Of a stretch of 64,000 nucleotides of DNA, positions 48,318-55,518 are shown in pieces. A model generated the notes under the pieces. The model worked only from the letters and a program-made list of their open reading frames with translations. It made no database searches and was not told the origin of the DNA. Every line of letters starts with the position of its first letter. The first letter of the stretch is position 1. Where the stretch lies: positions 62,001 to 126,000 of the forward strand of contig NZ_JAFKFX010000029.1 in assembly GCF_017308075.1 (NCBI RefSeq), read 5' to 3'. Origin of the DNA: Allobosea sp. (GTDB taxonomy: Bacteria > Pseudomonadota > Alphaproteobacteria > Rhizobiales > Beijerinckiaceae). The translations under genes were made by a program, and so were the position numbers.

Positions 48318-48827
48318 TCAGGCCGTCTGCAATGTCGCCGACAGCTCCGGCTTGACGTTCAGCGTCTGGAAGACGACGCAATAACGCTCGGTCAGCTTGA
48401 GCAGGCTGTCGAGCTTCTCCTGCGGGGCGTCGGTCTCGACGTCGAAGAACAGGCGGATCGCCTTGAATCCCACGGCGGCGTCCCTGGCGACGCCGAGGGT
48501 GCCGCGGAAGTCGAGATCGCCCTCGGCACGGACGACACCCTTCTTCAGCTCGATCTCGAGCGCGGTCGCGACCGCCTTCAGCGTGACGCCGGCACAGGCG
48601 ACCAGCGCCTCCAGCAGCATGTCGCCGGAGCAGAGCTCGGCGCCCGTGCCGCCGGTCGCCGGGTGCAGGCCGGCGAGCGCGATGGCGCGGCCGGTCTCGA
48701 CCTTGCAGGCGATGTGCTGGTCGTCGAGCTCGCCCTTGGCCTTGAGGGTGATCACGGCCGCGTCGGGGGCTTCGCGATACTTGTCCTTGAGCGGGGCCTG
48801 GAGGGCGCGAAGCGCGGTGACGTCCAT
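48318..48827 (-). CDS. OsmC family protein
   Basis: A 169-aa OsmC/Ohr-fold protein. The conserved cysteines lie in GAELCSGDMLLEALVACAGVTL, and the C-terminal KLTERYCVVFQTL segment carries a further one. The usual role is reduction of organic hydroperoxides, though this YhfA-like branch is less well characterised. It is convergent with the MFS gene, 9 bp away. Confidence 0.86.
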   Translation of the reverse strand: MDVTALRALQAPLKDKYREAPDAAVITLKAKGELDDQHIACKVETGRAIALAGLHPATGGTGAELCSGDMLLEALVACAGVTLKAVATALEIELKKGVVRAEGDLDFRGTLGVARDAAVGFKAIRLFFDVETDAPQEKLDSLLKLTERYCVVFQTLNVKPELSATLQTA

Positions 48828-48922: not shown

Positions 48923-49648
48923 TCAGGCGGCGACTTCCGCCTGCTCCGGCAGCGCGGCACCGCGTTCCTTTTCGAGCGAGTGGCGCAGTTCGCGCCGCAG
49001 GGCGACGAAGCCGACAGAACGGGGATCGCGCGGATACGGCAGGAGATTGTCGAGCCGGAAGGCGAGCGGACCAGGCGCCTGCGGCAGGACCAGAATCCGA
49101 TCGGCGAGACGGACGGCCTCCTCGACGGAGCCCGTGGCGATCGCTACCGCCGGGCGGCCCTGCCGACAGAGATCCGCGAGAGGCTCGGCGAGACGCTCCT
49201 GCGCCTCGTCGTCCAGCGCGGCGAAGGGCGCATCGACCAGCAGCAGCTTCGGACGCAGCAGCGACAGCCGGGCGATCGCCAGCCCCTGCAATTCGACCGG
49301 CGAGAGTGCGCCCGGACGACGATCCGCCAACCCGCCGAGGCCGGCCCTGACTAGGGCATTGGCGATCAGCCCCTCGCGGGCGAAGGGCGTCGTGCCAGCG
49401 AGGCCGAATGCAAGGTTCTCGGCAAGGTTCAGCCAGGGAAAGAAGCCGGGCCGGGCAGCGAGCAGCCCCAGTTCGGCTGTCGGCACCGGATCGGCTTCGG
49501 CATCGAGGCCGGCCAGAGCGCGCAGCAGAGCGCTACGACCTTCAGCCTGCCCGCCGAGCAAGGCGACGACCTGCCCCGGCGCCGGGCGCAGCGCAGCCGC
49601 GTCGAAACCGGCGGCGAAGAGCTTTGACTCATTGGATTTGGCGGACAT
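48923..49648 (-). CDS. Degenerate ABC-type ATPase (pseudo-ATPase) paired with the sulfonate transporter
   Basis: A 241-aa protein that follows the whole ABC ATPase layout but lacks its catalytic residues. The Walker A region is GGQAEGRSA (32-40) with Arg38 instead of Lys, the Q-loop Gln is replaced (GLLAARPGFFPWL), the signature is LSPVELQ instead of LSGGQ, Walker B is LLLVDAP with Ala140 instead of the catalytic Glu, and the H-loop is ATGSVEEA with no His. The intact ATPase immediately upstream has all of these residues. The frame is uninterrupted with a GGAAGGAAA ribosome binding site, so it looks maintained rather than decaying. It has its own promoter and SAM-II-like leader. A structural, regulatory or partner role is inferred. 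Confidence 0.8.
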   Translation of the reverse strand: MSAKSNESKLFAAGFDAAALRPAPGQVVALLGGQAEGRSALLRALAGLDAEADPVPTAELGLLAARPGFFPWLNLAENLAFGLAGTTPFAREGLIANALVRAGLGGLADRRPGALSPVELQGLAIARLSLLRPKLLLVDAPFAALDDEAQERLAEPLADLCRQGRPAVAIATGSVEEAVRLADRILVLPQAPGPLAFRLDNLLPYPRDPRSVGFVALRRELRHSLEKERGAALPEQAEVAA

Positions 49649-49715
49649 GGCGCGTTTCCTTCCCAAGCAAGGCGGAGGGAAAGCGCACGACGGCCACGGC
49701 CGTCATCTCGTCTCC

Positions 49716-49770
49716 CACGCTTTAGCGGCATTTATTTCGCGCCCGCAAGCTGAGGCTCAAATCGGCGCGT
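49716..49770 (-). ncRNA. SAM-II-like riboswitch upstream of the pseudo-ATPase gene
   Basis: Read on minus, CGCGCC (stem) is followed by GATTTGAGCC, GCTTGC, GGGCGCG closing the stem, then an AAATAAA linker and GCTAAAGCG. The order GAUUU-UUGC-stem-AAA-GCUAAA is the consensus of SAM-II (RF00521), the short pseudoknot riboswitch of alphaproteobacteria. It is nearly the same as the element at 52503-52558. About 68 nt separate it from the ATG at 49648, with a GACGGCC/GGCCGTC hairpin in between. Confidence 0.82.
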
Positions 49771-49776
49771 ATCCTT

Positions 49777-49805
49777 TATTACGGCCTCATTGTCCGCTTT
49801 GTCAA
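49777..49805 (-). promoter_or_regulatory. Promoter of the pseudo-ATPase gene
   Basis: On minus, TTGACA (49800-49805) and GTAATA (49777-49782) are separated by exactly 17 bases, close to a sigma-70-type promoter. It lies just upstream of the SAM-II element and just after the stop of the intact ATPase gene, so the pseudo-ATPase can be transcribed on its own. Confidence 0.7.
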
Positions 49806-49821
49806 ACACGCAAGCCTGACG

Positions 49822-50604
49822 TCACCACCACAGCCCGGCATTGGCCGCCGTCTTCTGCTGCCGGGGCTGGTCGTCGCGCAGCGAACGGTCGAGCGTGCGC
49901 AGCACCTCGCGCTTGGCGGCCTCGAAGGCGGGCGAGAGGTGGTCACGCGGCCGGGCCTGCGGGTTCTCGAGCTCGTCGAAGACGCGGCCCGGCCTCGGCT
50001 GCATCACCATGATCCGGTCGGCCAGCGTCACCGCCTCCTCGACATCATGGGTGACCATCACCACGGTCGGCCGGCTCTCCTGCCAGAGCGCCAGCAGATG
50101 CTCGTGCAGGCTGGCACGGGTTGTGGCGTCGAGCGCCGAGAAGGGCTCGTCCATCAGCAGGAGCTTGGGACGGGTTATCAGGGCGCGCGCAATGGCGACG
50201 CGCTGCTGCTGGCCGCCGGAGAGCTCGCGCGGCCAGCGCTTGTCATACCCGCCGAGACCGACGCGCTCGAGCGCATGGCCGACGCGGTGCCGGCGCTCGG
50301 CGGATGCGAGCTCCGACAGGCCGAAGCCGACATTGTCGGCGACGCTGAGCCAGGGGAAGAGCCGCGGCTCCTGGAAGATCACGCCGACATCGGCGCGCGG
50401 CTCGGAGATCGCCTTGCCGTCCAGCACGATCCGGCCCTCGCTCGGCCGGTCGAGCCCGGCGACGAGGCGCAGCAAGGTGGTCTTGCCGCAACCGGAGCCA
50501 CCGACGAGGGCGAGGATCTCGCCCGCCGCCACCTCGGCGGTGATGCCTGCGAGCGCCCTGGTGCCGTCGGCATAGGTCTTGGAGAGGTTGTCGAAGGTCA
50601 GCAT
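49822..50604 (-). CDS. ssuB: Sulfonate/taurine-type ABC transporter ATP-binding protein
   Basis: A 260-aa intact ABC ATPase: Walker [10 protein letters not shown] (35-43), Q-loop Gln78, LSGGQQQR signature (128-135), Walker B LLLMDEP with Glu153 and H-loop His186. The [18 protein letters not shown] and [15 protein letters not shown] blocks are typical of the SsuB/TauB/NrtD family. The ATG at 50604 fits the family start. It is the third gene after the binding protein and permease. Control by SAM at the head of the operon favours a sulfur substrate over nitrate. Confidence 0.88.
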
Positions 50605-50614
50605 CGCCACGGCC

Positions 50615-51445
50615 TCAGAGCTTGTCGCGGGCCGTGTCCTGCCAGCGCAGGAAGGGGCGTGCGAGCGCGACGAGCACGCCGTCGGCGAGCTTGCCGAGCA
50701 CGGCGAAGGAAATGATGGCAGCGATGATGGTGGCGGGCCGGCCGAGTTGCTGGCCATCGACCAGGAGATAGCCGAGGCCTTCGCTCGCGCCCATGATCTC
50801 GGCGGCGACGACGAACATGAAGCCGAGGCCGAGGCCACCGCGCAAAGCCGTGAACCAGTCCGGCAGGATCGCCGGCAACAGCACGCGCCGGACCATGGCG
50901 AGCCTGCCGAGGCGGAAGACGCGACCGACCTCGACGATCTTGCGGTCGATCGAGAGGATGGCGGCGGCGACGCCGAGATAGATCGGGAAGAAGACGCCGA
51001 CCGCGATCAGCGCCACTTTCGAGGCCTCGAAAATGCCGAACCAGAGGATGAAGAGCGGCACCCAGGCGATCGAGGGAATGGCGCGCAGCGCCTGCAAGGT
51101 CGGATCGAGCAGTCCGCGCGCTACGGGCAGCGCCCCGGTCAGCGCGCCGAGCACCGTGCCGGCGAGGGCGCCGAGGCCGAAGCCGGCAAGGACGCGCCAG
51201 AGCGTCGCAGCGGCATGGGTGGCGAGCTCGCCGCTGGCGGCCAGCTCCCAGAGCGTCGCGCCGACCACGCTCGGCGGCGGCATCAGCCGGCCATTGGCGA
51301 GGCCCGCCCTGACCAGCGCCTCCCAGATCACGGCGAGCACGACCGGCAGCACCAGCCCGGCGAGCCGCAATTGCGCCCGGCCCGCCCGCTTCGCCGGGAC
51401 GGCCTCGGGCGCCGCTGCCGCCGTTCCGATCTCGATCGCGCTCAT
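50615..51445 (-). CDS. ssuC: Sulfonate/taurine-type ABC transporter permease
   Basis: A 276-aa inner-membrane permease with about six hydrophobic segments. LRAIPSIAWVPLFILWFGIFEASKVALI is the SsuC/TauC hallmark, and the coupling helix region is VGRVFRLGRLAMVRRVLLP. It lies 10 nt upstream of the ATPase start and 19 nt after the binding-protein stop. Confidence 0.88.
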   Translation of the reverse strand: MSAIEIGTAAAAPEAVPAKRAGRAQLRLAGLVLPVVLAVIWEALVRAGLANGRLMPPPSVVGATLWELAASGELATHAAATLWRVLAGFGLGALAGTVLGALTGALPVARGLLDPTLQALRAIPSIAWVPLFILWFGIFEASKVALIAVGVFFPIYLGVAAAILSIDRKIVEVGRVFRLGRLAMVRRVLLPAILPDWFTALRGGLGLGFMFVVAAEIMGASEGLGYLLVDGQQLGRPATIIAAIISFAVLGKLADGVLVALARPFLRWQDTARDKL

Positions 51446-51464: not shown

Positions 51465-52439
51465 TCAGTTGGTGGCGGCGAAGCGCCGGTCGAGCAGCGC
51501 GTCGACCGCCGCCTTCACATCCGTGCTCGCGGGCAGCACCCCGGCCTGCTGCAAAGCGAGGCCGGCGGCAAGGGTGGTTTCGGCCTGGGCCGGCCCGATA
51601 TTGCTGTGGGTCAGCTCGGTGCGGGTGAGCTGGCGCTCGATCACCGCATCGGAGAGCTTGGTCGCCTCGACCAGCGCCTTCCTGACCTCGGCCGGGTTGG
51701 CGAGGGCAATGGCGCGCGCCTCCTCATAGGCTTTCAGCACCTTGCGGACGAGTTCCGGGTTCTTTTCGGCGAACTCCTCGCGGACATTGAGCACGCCCCA
51801 AGTGTTGTCGGCCGCCTTGCGGTGGAAGAGCCTGGCGCCGCTCTCGACCTCGGCAGCCGCCATAAGTGGGTCGAGCCCCGCCCAGGCCTCGACATCGCCG
51901 CGCTCCAGCGCGAGGCGGCCATCGGCATGCTGGAGCAGGACGAGCTTGACGTCCTTCTCAGTCAGGCCGGCATCGGCGAGCGAGCGAACGAGGAAGATGT
52001 GCGGATCGGTACCGCGAGTGACGGCGACGCGCTTGCCCTTGAGATCGGAAACCTTGGTGATCTCGCTCTTGGCGCCGGTGACCAGCGCCGTCCATTCCGG
52101 CCGCGAATAGACATAGATCGACTTGATCGGATTGCCGTTGATCTTGCCGATCAGCGCGGCGGCGCCGGCGGTCGAGCCGAAATCGAGCGAGCCGGCATTG
52201 AGGAATTCGAGCGCCTTGTTGGAGCCGGCCGAGAAGACCCAGCGGACCTTGATGCCATCGGCCTCGAGCGCCTTCTCGAGGATGCCGCGCTCCTTCAGGA
52301 CGAGGCCGACCGGATTGTAGGTCGCATAGTCGACGCGGATTTCCTTCGGCGCCTGGGCCAAAGCGGCGCCGGCTGCGATGGTGACAGCGGCAAGGCCGGC
52401 AAGCACGGCGCGGCGGTTCGGAAGCAAGGTCCGGATCAT
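51465..52439 (-). CDS. ssuA: Sulfonate/taurine-type ABC transporter substrate-binding protein
   Basis: A 324-aa exported protein. The N-terminus has a twin-arginine-like NRRAVLAGLAA signal peptide ending near AQA (residue 29). IRVDYATYNPVGLVLKERGILEKAL and GSLDFGSTAGAAALIGKINGNPIK match the SsuA/NMT1-like family. A GAAAGGGAAA ribosome binding site precedes the ATG. First gene of the SAM-II-controlled operon; aliphatic sulfonates are the likely substrate. Confidence 0.86.
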   Translation of the reverse strand: MIRTLLPNRRAVLAGLAAVTIAAGAALAQAPKEIRVDYATYNPVGLVLKERGILEKALEADGIKVRWVFSAGSNKALEFLNAGSLDFGSTAGAAALIGKINGNPIKSIYVYSRPEWTALVTGAKSEITKVSDLKGKRVAVTRGTDPHIFLVRSLADAGLTEKDVKLVLLQHADGRLALERGDVEAWAGLDPLMAAAEVESGARLFHRKAADNTWGVLNVREEFAEKNPELVRKVLKAYEEARAIALANPAEVRKALVEATKLSDAVIERQLTRTELTHSNIGPAQAETTLAAGLALQQAGVLPASTDVKAAVDALLDRRFAATN

Positions 52440-52502
52440 GGCGTTTCCCTTTCGTCACATGGCTGCGAAGGGATCGGAGGCCTTGCCGGGCCTCCCGCGC
52501 CC

Positions 52503-52558
52503 CACGCTTTAGCTGCACTTGTTTCGCGCCCGCAAGCTGGTGGCTCAAATCGGCGCGT
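52503..52558 (-). ncRNA. SAM-II-like riboswitch upstream of the sulfonate operon
   Basis: On minus: CGCGCC, then GATTTGAGCC, CAGCTTGC, GGGCGCG, AAACAAG and GCTAAAGCG, the SAM-II order. The only differences from 49716-49770 are in loop or spacer positions, a strong sign of selection on the fold. About 64 nt separate it from the ATG at 52439; a GGAGGCC..GGCCTCC hairpin lies in that interval and could be the expression platform. High SAM should lower expression of sulfur uptake. Confidence 0.85.
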
Positions 52559-52564
52559 ATCCGG

Positions 52565-52593
52565 TTTTTAGGCTCACATGTTCTTTTTGTCAA
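52565..52593 (-). promoter_or_regulatory. Promoter of the sulfonate operon
   Basis: On minus, TTGACA (52588-52593) and TAAAAA (52565-52570) are spaced by 17 bases, the same layout as the promoter at 49777-49805. It lies directly upstream of the SAM-II element and in the divergent gap to glnD. Confidence 0.65.
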
Positions 52594-52716: not shown

Positions 52717-55518
52717 GTGCCGCCCATCGACGACAAGCCTGCCCCGAAACTGGCCGAGCTGATCGAGGACCCGGCCGCGGCCGTCGCCAGGCTGGCGCGG
52801 CAGACCCGTGGCGGCCCCGAGGCGCTCCGCGCCGTCCTCGTCCCCGCGCTGCGCGACGCGCTCGAGGAAGGCCGCGCCTCGGCCAAGGAACTGCTCGTCC
52901 GCACCCGCAACGGCCTCGCTTGCGCCAAGCGGCTCTCCGCCAGCATGGATGCCGTGGTCTGCAGCCTGCATGCCGCGGCGACCCGGCATTTCTACCCGGT
53001 GCAGAACCCGTCCTCGGGCGAACGCATGGCGGTCGTCGCCGTCGGCGGCTATGGCCGCGGCACGCTGGCGCCGGGCTCGGATGTCGACCTGCTCTTCCTG
53101 TTCCCGGACAAGCAGACGGCCTGGGGCGAGAGCGTGGTCGAGGCAGTGCTCTATCCGCTCTGGGACCTGAAGCTGAAGATCGGTCATTCCGTCCGCTCGG
53201 TTGAGGACTGCATCCGCGAGGCGCGCGGCGACATGACGATCCGCACCGCATTGCTGGAATCGCGGCTGGTGGCCGGGGATGCGACGCTGTTCGCCGACAT
53301 GCTGCGGCGCTACGGCGCGGAAGTGGTCGAGGGCACGGCTCCCGCCTTCACCGAGGCGAAGCTCGCCGAGCGCGAGACGCGGGTGATGCGGGCCGGCGCC
53401 TCGCGCTATCTGGTCGAGCCCAACGTCAAGGACGGCAAGGGCGGGCTGCGCGATCTCAACACCCTGTTCTGGATCGCGAAATACGCCTATCGCGTCGATA
53501 ATTCGGCTGATCTCGTCGAGGCCGGCCTGTTCGACGCCCGCGAGCTCGCTATCTTCCAGCGCGCCGAGGAGTTCCTCTGGCGGGTGCGCTGCTGGATGCA
53601 CTTCATCACCGGCCGGGCGGAAGAGCGCCTGTCCTTCGACCTGCAGCGCCAGGTGGCGGCGGCGATCGGCTATGCCGGCCGGAGCGGACTGGCGCCGGTC
53701 GAGCGCTTCATGAAAGCCTATTTCCTCACCGCCAAGGATGTCGGCGATCTCACCGCCATCGTCTGCGCCGCGCTCGAAGCGCGCCAGCAGAAGCCGCGCG
53801 CCAGCCTGACGCATCTGCTCGGCTCGCTGACCAAGCGCAAGCGCGTGCGCGCGCTCGGCCACCCGGATTTCACCCTGAAGGGCCAGCGCCTCGGCGTCGT
53901 CGACGACGACGCCTTCAAGCGCGACCCGGTCAACCTGCTGCGACTCTACGAGATCGCCAGCCGCGACGACCTCGCCATCCACCCGGCGACCAGCCGGCTG
54001 GTGACGCAGTCGCTCCGGCTGGTCACGGCGCAATTGCGCCATGACCGCGAGGCCAACCGCATCTTCGTCGAGATCCTGACCGCGCGGCGCTCGCCCGAGG
54101 CGGTGCTGCGGCGGATGAACGAATCCGGGCTGCTCGGCCGCTTCATCCCGGATTTCGGCCGCATCGTCGCGATGATGCAGTTCAACATGTATCATCACTA
54201 CACGGTCGACGAGCACCTGATCCGCTCGATCGGCATCCTCGCCGAGATCGACGCCGGAGCGCTCGAGGCCGAGCATCCGCTCGCCAATGCGATCTTCCCG
54301 AGCATCGCCAACCGGCGCGCGCTCTATGTCGCGCTGTTCCTGCACGACATCGCCAAGGGGCGACCGGAAGATCATTCGATCGCCGGTGCACGCATCGCCC
54401 GCAAGCTCTGCCGGCGCTTCGGCCTGACGGAAGCGCAGACCGAGACCGTGGTCTGGCTGATCGAGAACCATCTGGTGATGTCGACCGTCGCCCAGAGCCG
54501 CGATCTCGGCGACCCCAAGACGATCGAGAGCTTCGCAGCGACCGTGCAATCGCTGGAGCGGCTGAAGCTGCTGCTCGTGCTCACCGTCGCCGACATCAAA
54601 GCCGTCGGCCCCGGTGTCTGGAACGGCTGGAAGGGCCAGCTCCTGCGCACGCTCTATTACGAGACCGAGATGGTGCTCGCCGGCGGCCATTCGGCGATCG
54701 AGCGCAAGGCCAGGGTCGAGCTGAAGCAGGACGCACTCGCCGCAAGGCTCTCCGACTGGGAGCCGGCGGCGCGCGAGGCCTATCTCGCCCGGCACTACCC
54801 GGCCTATTGGCTCAAGGTCGAGCTCGACCGGCAGGAGCAGCATGCCCGCTTCCTGCACGCGGCCGAGGCGGCCGGCCGCACCACGGCGACGCGGGTCGAG
54901 ACCGATCGCTTCCGTGGCGTCACCGAACTCACCATCCTGGCGCCTGACCATCCGCGCCTGCTCGCCATCGTCACCGGCGCCTGCGCCGCGGCGGGCGGCA
55001 ACATCGTCGACGCCCAGATCTTCACCACCAGCGACGGCCTCGTGCTCGACACGATTTTCGTCTCACGCGCCTTCGAGCGCGACGACGACGAATTGCGCCG
55101 GGCCGAGCGCATCGCGGCAGCGATCGAGCGCGCGCTCAAGGGCGAGATCAAGATCGCCGATCTGGTGGCGCAGCGCCGCGCCCCGCCGCCGCGCGGCCAG
55201 ACCTTCCAGGTCGCGCCCGAAGTCGTCATCGACAACGTGCTCTCGACCCGCCACACGGTGATCGAAGTCTCGGGCCTCGACCGCCCGGGCCTGCTCTACG
55301 ACCTGACCACCGCGATCTCGAAGCTCAACCTCAACATCGCCTCGGCCCATATCGCCACCTTCGGCGAGAAGGCCGTCGACGTCTTCTACGTCACCGATCT
55401 GACGGGTGCGAAGATCACCACCACCGCCCGCCAGCTGATCATCCGCCAGGCGCTGCTCGCCGTCTTCAGCTTCGACCATGACAAGGCCACGAAGAGCAAA
55501 GCGATGGCCCGAACTTGA
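52717..55518 (+). CDS. glnD: Bifunctional uridylyltransferase/uridylyl-removing enzyme
   Basis: A 933-aa nitrogen sensor that modifies PII proteins. The nucleotidyltransferase motif is GGYGRGTLAPGSDVDLLFL near residues 108-127. The HD hydrolase motif is LFLHDIAKG, with HYTVDEH upstream. Two C-terminal ACT domains (ELTILAPDHPRLLAIVTG and VIEVSGLDRPGLLYDLTTA) sense glutamine. The start is a GTG. The gene is divergent from the sulfonate operon and is followed 91 bp later by grpE. Confidence 0.96.
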   Translation: MPPIDDKPAPKLAELIEDPAAAVARLARQTRGGPEALRAVLVPALRDALEEGRASAKELLVRTRNGLACAKRLSASMDAVVCSLHAAATRHFYPVQNPSSGERMAVVAVGGYGRGTLAPGSDVDLLFLFPDKQTAWGESVVEAVLYPLWDLKLKIGHSVRSVEDCIREARGDMTIRTALLESRLVAGDATLFADMLRRYGAEVVEGTAPAFTEAKLAERETRVMRAGASRYLVEPNVKDGKGGLRDLNTLFWIAKYAYRVDNSADLVEAGLFDARELAIFQRAEEFLWRVRCWMHFITGRAEERLSFDLQRQVAAAIGYAGRSGLAPVERFMKAYFLTAKDVGDLTAIVCAALEARQQKPRASLTHLLGSLTKRKRVRALGHPDFTLKGQRLGVVDDDAFKRDPVNLLRLYEIASRDDLAIHPATSRLVTQSLRLVTAQLRHDREANRIFVEILTARRSPEAVLRRMNESGLLGRFIPDFGRIVAMMQFNMYHHYTVDEHLIRSIGILAEIDAGALEAEHPLANAIFPSIANRRALYVALFLHDIAKGRPEDHSIAGARIARKLCRRFGLTEAQTETVVWLIENHLVMSTVAQSRDLGDPKTIESFAATVQSLERLKLLLVLTVADIKAVGPGVWNGWKGQLLRTLYYETEMVLAGGHSAIERKARVELKQDALAARLSDWEPAAREAYLARHYPAYWLKVELDRQEQHARFLHAAEAAGRTTATRVETDRFRGVTELTILAPDHPRLLAIVTGACAAAGGNIVDAQIFTTSDGLVLDTIFVSRAFERDDDELRRAERIAAAIERALKGEIKIADLVAQRRAPPPRGQTFQVAPEVVIDNVLSTRHTVIEVSGLDRPGLLYDLTTAISKLNLNIASAHIATFGEKAVDVFYVTDLTGAKITTTARQLIIRQALLAVFSFDHDKATKSKAMART

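Follow-up and report, generated by a model that had tools for sequence, protein, structure and literature searches.

ABC ATPases that have lost catalytic residues are usually explained as halves of asymmetric motors. In the heterodimeric ABC transporters TM287/288, CFTR and TAP, one site is degenerate and one working composite site is kept. An importer ATPase can also have a regulatory second job, as in MalK-MalT. The importer ATPases NrtC and NrtD are described in an excerpt of PMC6603209 as bound by the signalling protein PII, and according to an excerpt of PMC13249358 PII buries NrtC's C-terminal regulatory domain. For the ATPase MsmX, an excerpt of PMC7658222 reports that alanine changes in the loop before helix alpha4 and in that helix together reduce growth, though they lie off the permease interface.

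The protein described here, SsuB2, resembles the importer ATPases of the SsuB and NrtC-NrtD-CmpC-CmpD type in fold and sequence, and it groups with SsuB. It differs from them in that the Walker A Lys, Q-loop Gln, signature Gly-Gly and H-loop His are absent from all 20 SsuB2 proteins compared. As in TM287/288, CFTR and TAP, it is a paralogue with lost catalytic residues; those transporters keep a working composite site, whereas the window SsuB2 has neither a Walker A nor a signature, and ssuB2 also occurs where ssuC is missing. The role proposed below resembles that of NrtC/NrtD with PII and of MalK with MalT, where an importer ATPase serves as docking site for a signalling protein, except that the NrtC/NrtD and MalK ATPases stay active and that the C-terminal regulatory domain of NrtC is absent from SsuB2.

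The ssuB2 gene and its lost catalytic motifs

The window, meaning the whole stretch of 64,000 nucleotides that was analysed, carries the following features at this locus:

48318..48827, minus strand: OsmC-like protein, last gene of the cluster (profile search, conserved position)
48923..49648, minus strand: ssuB2, degenerate SsuB paralogue, a pseudo-ATPase of 241 aa (intact frame, dN/dS, AF2 model)
49532..49555, minus strand: degenerate Walker A of SsuB2, GGQAEGRS (sequence comparison)
49702..49778, minus strand: SAM-II-like (SAM_alpha) leader of ssuB2 (RF00521, 32.9 bits, E 8.3e-5)
49822..50604, minus strand: ssuB, intact sulfonate-type importer ATPase (motifs, profile search)
50615..51445, minus strand: ssuC, permease (best NCBIfam matches below their cut-offs)
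51465..52439, minus strand: ssuA, substrate-binding protein (TIGR01728 above cut-off)
52489..52566, minus strand: SAM-II-like leader of ssuA (RF00521, 34.8 bits, E 2.5e-5)
52717..55518, plus strand: divergent flanking gene, which we take to be glnD (conserved position)

The ssuB2 frame is intact from 49648 to 48923, and the closest relative of its product in the genome is the adjoining SsuB (50604-49822), with 42% identity. The neighbor retains all of the catalytic motifs, with IFQEP at the Q-loop, MDEPF at Walker B and VTHD at the H-loop. In the window SsuB2 the Q-loop and Walker B motifs were replaced, the H-loop position reads ATGS, the signature position LSPVELQG and the Walker A position GGQAEGRS, so that none of the residues expected of an active ABC ATPase (Walker A Lys, Q-loop Gln, signature Gly-Gly, H-loop His and Walker B Glu) is found. 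The losses at five motifs, in an intact frame next to an intact paralogue, that the first-pass annotation had pointed out are therefore real for this protein.

Most of these losses extend across the 20 SsuB2 proteins compared. The Walker A Lys (K41) is replaced by R in 20/20, the Q-loop Gln (Q78) by A in 19 and S in 1, the signature residue G130 by P in 18 and A in 2, its neighbor G131 by E in 18 and V in 2, and the H-loop His (H186) by G in 19 and S in 1; neither Walker A nor signature survives in the window protein or in any of the 20. The catalytic Glu of Walker B, which had also been listed as lost, is gone only in the window species and in genome G050 (2/20), being present in the other 18 and in 3/3 deep orphans (genomes with ssuB2 and no transporter genes at the locus), so its loss holds for the window protein and not as a general trait of SsuB2. 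The full catalytic set was found in 0/23 SsuB2 proteins compared. The protein of the orphan G042 (locus L055) retains Walker A, as GRDGSGKS with its Lys, and has lost the Q-loop Gln, signature Gly-Gly and H-loop His.

The protein is still recognizable as an ABC ATPase. SsuB2 scored 38.7 bits against PF00005 (ABC transporter ATPase; gathering score 25), and its AF2 model (pLDDT 84.7) keeps the ABC fold, with CmpC, NrtC and NrtD as best Foldseek matches (best E 1.2e-15). Against NF008420 (PRK11247, the SsuB equivalog, cut-off 395) SsuB2 scored 72.9 bits and the neighboring SsuB 216.1, also below the cut-off. The C-terminal block of SsuB2 (residues 193-228), GPxAFxLDNLLxxPRxxxSVGFxxLRRELRR, is nearly invariant among SsuB2 proteins and unlike SsuB.

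Leaders, distribution and maintenance in Bosea

Both leaders in the window share a conserved core with the SAM-II riboswitch (RF00521), with scores of 32.9 and 34.8 that fall below the gathering score of 36 bits; the E values given above apply to the region searched, and no RNA family matched in the window at the gathering score. The RF00521 cut-off was passed by 1/20 loci searched, the orphan locus L033 with 37.8 bits, and matches at E 0.01 or less were obtained in 9/18 loci. The leader core lies directly 5' of ssuB2 in 25/25 loci and 5' of ssuA in 55/56, the exception being G030, where the contig starts inside ssuA; none of the single-copy loci has a leader between ssuB and OsmC. The earlier claim that ssuB2 has its own SAM-II-like leader is thus borne out by conservation of the core, at a score below the cut-off in the window. 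A promoter of its own had also been claimed, for which the case is weaker: in 25/25 ssuB2 loci TTGAC occurs at most 60 nt 5' of the leader core (TTGACA in 24), which speaks for the claim, while a sigma-70 promoter scan gave no full site, and the promoter and terminator scan yielded nothing. Since ssuA and ssuB2 have the same type of leader, SsuB2 and the transporter should be made together, and ssuB2 is predicted from its leader to be made at low SAM. Such predicted joint expression tells against an inhibitor that is produced when SAM is high, and the SAM-responsive inhibitor of sulfonate uptake suggested earlier is not favored.

The census covered 67 genomes of the genus Bosea, in which loci were read with eight window proteins as queries; regions were read from 66, and G027 was judged from searches alone. 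The gene ssuB2 was found in 25/67 and absent from 42/67. The single state (39 genomes) consists of ssuA-ssuC-ssuB-OsmC, beside glnD where the contig reaches. In the dual state (18 genomes, the window included) the leader and ssuB2 lie between ssuB and OsmC. The orphan state (seven genomes: G029, G042, G044, G055, G056, G058 and G059) has the leader and ssuB2 but has lost ssuA, ssuC and ssuB at this position, and three genomes (G027, G038 with an ssuB stub, and G041) have neither ssuABC nor ssuB2. The gene ssuC is present at the locus in 18/25 SsuB2 genomes, the window included. In 7/7 orphans a genome search gave no SsuC orthologue, all matches having 28 to 36% identity (best matches 30 to 36%), whereas true SsuC orthologues have at least 76% identity among 18 genomes searched (in G105 in two pieces, 90% and 70%). 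OsmC is the next gene found in 24/25 ssuB2 loci; the remaining one ends at a contig edge. In a further search, 15 of the 24 loci listed encode ssuB2; they belong to Bosea (Bosea sp. WAO, B. lupini, B. thiooxidans DSM 9653 and others) and a few less precisely labelled Hyphomicrobiales.

Of the 25 copies, 21 are intact, one has an altered tail (G028), one is cut by a contig end (G055) and two are broken, in the dual genome G007 and the orphan G029. By the Nei-Gojobori method, dN/dS of ssuB2 was 0.13 to 0.35 in 14/14 dual-genome pairs, which were chosen by hand and share species, and that of ssuB in the same pairs 0.03 to 0.14; the window's own pair (G000-G050) gave 0.13 for ssuB2 and 0.14 for ssuB. 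Among the orphans, values were 0.13 for G044 (against two duals) and 0.40 to 0.47 for G058. Many residues are invariant across 18 SsuB2 proteins. Judged by these substitution rates, ssuB2 is under purifying selection, and the proposal of the first-pass annotation that it is selected for a non-catalytic role gains support from the 14 chosen pairs and the 21/25 intact frames. Random frameshifts or absences among relatives, or restored catalytic residues, had been named there as signs to the contrary, and on these the outcome is mixed: two copies are broken and the gene is absent from 42 genomes, and the catalytic set is complete in none of the 23 proteins, with G042 keeping the Walker A Lys. Pseudogene status was considered and rejected on the dN/dS of the 14 chosen pairs and the 2/25 broken copies, with the orphan G058 at the highest values. 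The orphans G042, G056, G059 and G058 lie on long branches, and since orphans are often fast-evolving or broken, some dependence on the transporter is suggested.

The 20 SsuB2 proteins form one clade. In a tree from which the columns of the helix described below were excluded, a branch (support 99) divided them and the orphans G042 and G056 from all Bosea SsuB and 27 outside SsuB; this tree did not include G059, and long branches are in play. The SsuB2 proteins, G042 and G056 included, also share derived residues. A single duplication followed by losses fits best, the duplicated unit probably being the leader plus ssuB. As the two leaders are direct repeats, recombination between them could delete ssuACB and leave ssuB2, so that orphans could arise passively. 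The ssuB2 genes of G012, G020, G023, G026, G044, G051 and G060 nest within those of one group of dual genomes (clade I), though the species do not. The tree suggests that the B. thiooxidans group received its ssuB2 from clade I by horizontal transfer; this is not claimed, because the AU test (p 0.296) does not reject the alternative.

A helix eroded in SsuB and kept in SsuB2

Two further features are concerned:

49337..49384, minus strand: helix codons F89-L104 of SsuB2, equivalent to SsuB 102-117, FxREGLxxNxLVRxGL (alignment; helix 88-101 in the AF2 model)
50254..50301, minus strand: the same helix, eroded, in the intact SsuB, residues 102-117 (alignment)

The segment after the Q-loop resembles FEREGLxxNALVRVGL in single-copy SsuB and in SsuB2 and is mostly gone from the SsuB of dual genomes. 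Four of its residues, F102, E105, G106 and N110, are kept by SsuB2 in 20/20 proteins compared and in 3/3 deep orphans, and at least one of them is lost from SsuB in 16/18 duals versus 1/39 singles. The exceptions are the duals G020 and G026, which keep all four, and the single G016, which lost two. At 152 SsuB sites one residue is shared by 38 or more of the 39 single-copy genomes, and 13 of these fixed sites lie in helix 102-117. In the 12 SsuBs of clade-I duals the majority residue departs from the fixed one at only five of the 152, F83, F102, E105, G106 and N110, four of which are in the helix (hypergeometric 1.6e-4), and all five are retained by SsuB2 in 20/20. In the six clade-II dual SsuBs, 10/15 changes at fixed sites are in the helix, or 9/13 when shared changes are merged (binomial 1.3e-7); by genome, the helix share is 4/4 in G051, 3/3 in G060, 2/2 in G023, 1/3 in G012, 0/2 in G020 and 0/1 in G026. 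In 6/6 degenerate proteins tested among the 25 copies, including those of the orphans G042, G056, G059 and G058, no window of 16 residues was closer to the single-copy consensus than the helix; in the SsuB2 studied here, segments at two other places, SsuB 144-145 and 185, are equally close. The one single-copy genome with helix losses, G016 (L088), is placed close to dual genomes in the tree, and its lack of ssuB2 may be a recent loss.

The helix pattern was noticed before it was tested. Tree-independent contrasts numbered four pairs, of which on average 2.5 went the predicted way, 0.1 the opposite way and 1.4 showed no difference, and with four independent contrasts a sign test cannot reach 0.05. 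The fewest changes on the tree were 5 for F102, 4 for E105, 2 for G106 and 2 for N110. Outside Bosea all four positions are variable and F102 occurs in 0/27 SsuB; this set derives from matches in 50/397 genomes, with 30 loci listed, 3 from Bosea and 27 from other genera. In the rooted species tree clade I lies inside Bosea, and the Bosea-type L107 is found in 11/12 clade-I SsuBs, the window's own excepted, where outside proteins have R or K. From this nesting and the retained L107, the four-residue state most likely arose within Bosea and later disappeared from clade-I SsuB.

A matching change in the permease was looked for and not seen. The number of sites that distinguish singles from clade-I duals is 1 for SsuC, 0 for OsmC and 7 for SsuA, so changes in the permease do not follow those in the helix. 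A DNA or RNA element beneath the helix is likewise not favored. Across the segment, synonymous variation among 35 single-copy ssuB genes is unremarkable (H/He 0.70 to 0.79 for windows from 97, 101 and 105, versus 0.59 to 1.00 gene-wide); GGG and AAT, which are rarer codons, occur often in this segment and more than in glnD, and the helix DNA pattern has one match in the genome with up to 3 mismatches allowed. The SsuB2 helix codons, in contrast, vary less than the median window (0.49 versus 0.66, rank 32 of 226), and a nucleic-acid contribution may exist. With third codon positions normal in single-copy ssuB and somewhat less variable in SsuB2, the constraint looks to be mainly on the protein. 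The spacing of the four residues (i, i+3, i+4, i+8) should place them on one face of the helix.

A proposed division of labor and its rivals

The reading preferred here, at a probability of about 0.5, is that the catalytically dead SsuB2 took over a second, non-catalytic docking job of SsuB borne by this helix. The second job would sit on the helical-subdomain helix (F102, E105, G106, N110). After duplication of the leader and ssuB, one copy, SsuB, would have kept ATP hydrolysis and let the helix erode, while the other, SsuB2, would have kept the fold and the helix and lost ATP binding. At low SAM, SsuB2 would be made alongside the transporter as a docking or adaptor protein for a putative cytosolic partner. 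The sequence comparisons establish lost catalytic motifs, purifying selection, a conserved leader and complementary erosion; that the four residues face outward and bind the putative partner, that SsuB2 binds no ATP and that SAM lowers ssuB2 expression are predictions. A PII-type protein is a lead as partner, by analogy with NrtC/NrtD, and only a lead, because the PII contact described lies on a domain absent from SsuB2. The wider account, in which an importer ATPase has an ATP-independent helix function, duplication splits the two functions and the dead copy outlives the transporter as a free-standing docking protein controlled by SAM, has slightly less than an even chance. The hand-over is favored by the seven genomes that keep the leader and ssuB2 (one copy broken, G029) with no SsuC orthologue; against it are the few independent contrasts, a pattern seen before testing, and orphans that are fast-evolving or broken.

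Natural variation over 67 genomes points to four helix residues with a job seemingly separate from ATP hydrolysis. If the reading is true, they give a direct way to test what importer ATPases do besides transport, and the two genes are a clean bacterial example of duplicates that eroded reciprocally. In the open-licence PMC literature no paper on ssuB2 was found, and none on SAM-II riboswitches in Bosea, which does not prove absence in print; a division of labor between a living and a dead ATPase was not met in the same literature.

SsuB2 could instead be a regulatory subunit of SsuABC that docks SsuC or SsuB via its fold, its ATP-dead complexes throttling or stabilizing the importer at low SAM. 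This is unlikely, yet it draws on the position of ssuB2 beside ssuABC in 18/25 loci with the same leader type, and on several transporter-less copies that are faster-evolving or broken (G058, G029 and the long-branch G042, G056 and G059). The MsmX changes before and in helix alpha4, in the excerpt of PMC7658222 and with the helix matched by eye, point the same way, and together with the state of the orphans they keep a transporter-linked explanation alive. It has to contend with the seven SsuB2 genomes in which the SsuC orthologue is absent, with the four orphans tested in which no window is better conserved than the helix, and with the single SsuC site that separates singles from clade-I duals.

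Docking on another permease, as a subunit of a different importer, is improbable. The orphan genomes do hold other SsuC-like permeases (28 to 36% identity), and in the excerpt of PMC7658222 the helical domain contributes to the interface of ATPase and permease; against this, the window SsuB2 cannot complete an ATP site. The same point bears on the partner nucleotide-binding domain of an asymmetric transporter that the first-pass annotation had considered. With Walker A and signature both missing, the window SsuB2 and SsuB together would complete no ATP site, neither motif being supplied, and the cognate permease is absent in 7/25 SsuB2 genomes, so an asymmetric motor with one degenerate site is disfavored.

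It is very improbable that ssuB2 is a leftover of the duplication in slow decay, its frame open only through high G+C and chance: the two broken copies (G007, G029), the altered tail in G028, the absence from 42/67 genomes and the dN/dS of 0.40 to 0.47 in the orphan G058 fit it, and it is contradicted by values well below 1 (0.13 to 0.35 in 14 pairs, 0.13 for the orphan G044 against two duals), by many residues invariant across 18 proteins and by the leader in 25/25 loci. Hardly any weight is given to the idea that the leader and ssuB2 frame are kept to place OsmC under SAM control, with the protein a by-product, which accords with OsmC following ssuB2 in 24/25 loci (the other at a contig edge) and with an excerpt of PMC5069961 reporting that in Pelagibacter osmC lies 3' of a SAM riboswitch and is upregulated when sulfur is limiting, and is opposed by selection on amino acids, strong on one helix, and by the lack of a leader between ssuB and OsmC in every single-copy locus.

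OsmC lies within 1.5 kb of ssuA-C-B in 24/27 non-Bosea loci (L137-L163, among the matches listed). By this comparison of gene order, the arrangement of ssuA-C-B followed by OsmC is older than Bosea, and the adjacency of OsmC to ssuB outside Bosea suggests a link of OsmC to sulfonate metabolism. For the pair G012-G020, OsmC had a dN/dS of 0.67. Between ssuB and the ssuB2 leader, a GNAT-like acetyltransferase-like frame is present in L036, L037 and L041, and a glyoxalase/VOC-like frame also in L037 and L041, both named by eye; long gaps between ssuB and ssuB2 occur in L038, L043, L045 and L049 as well.
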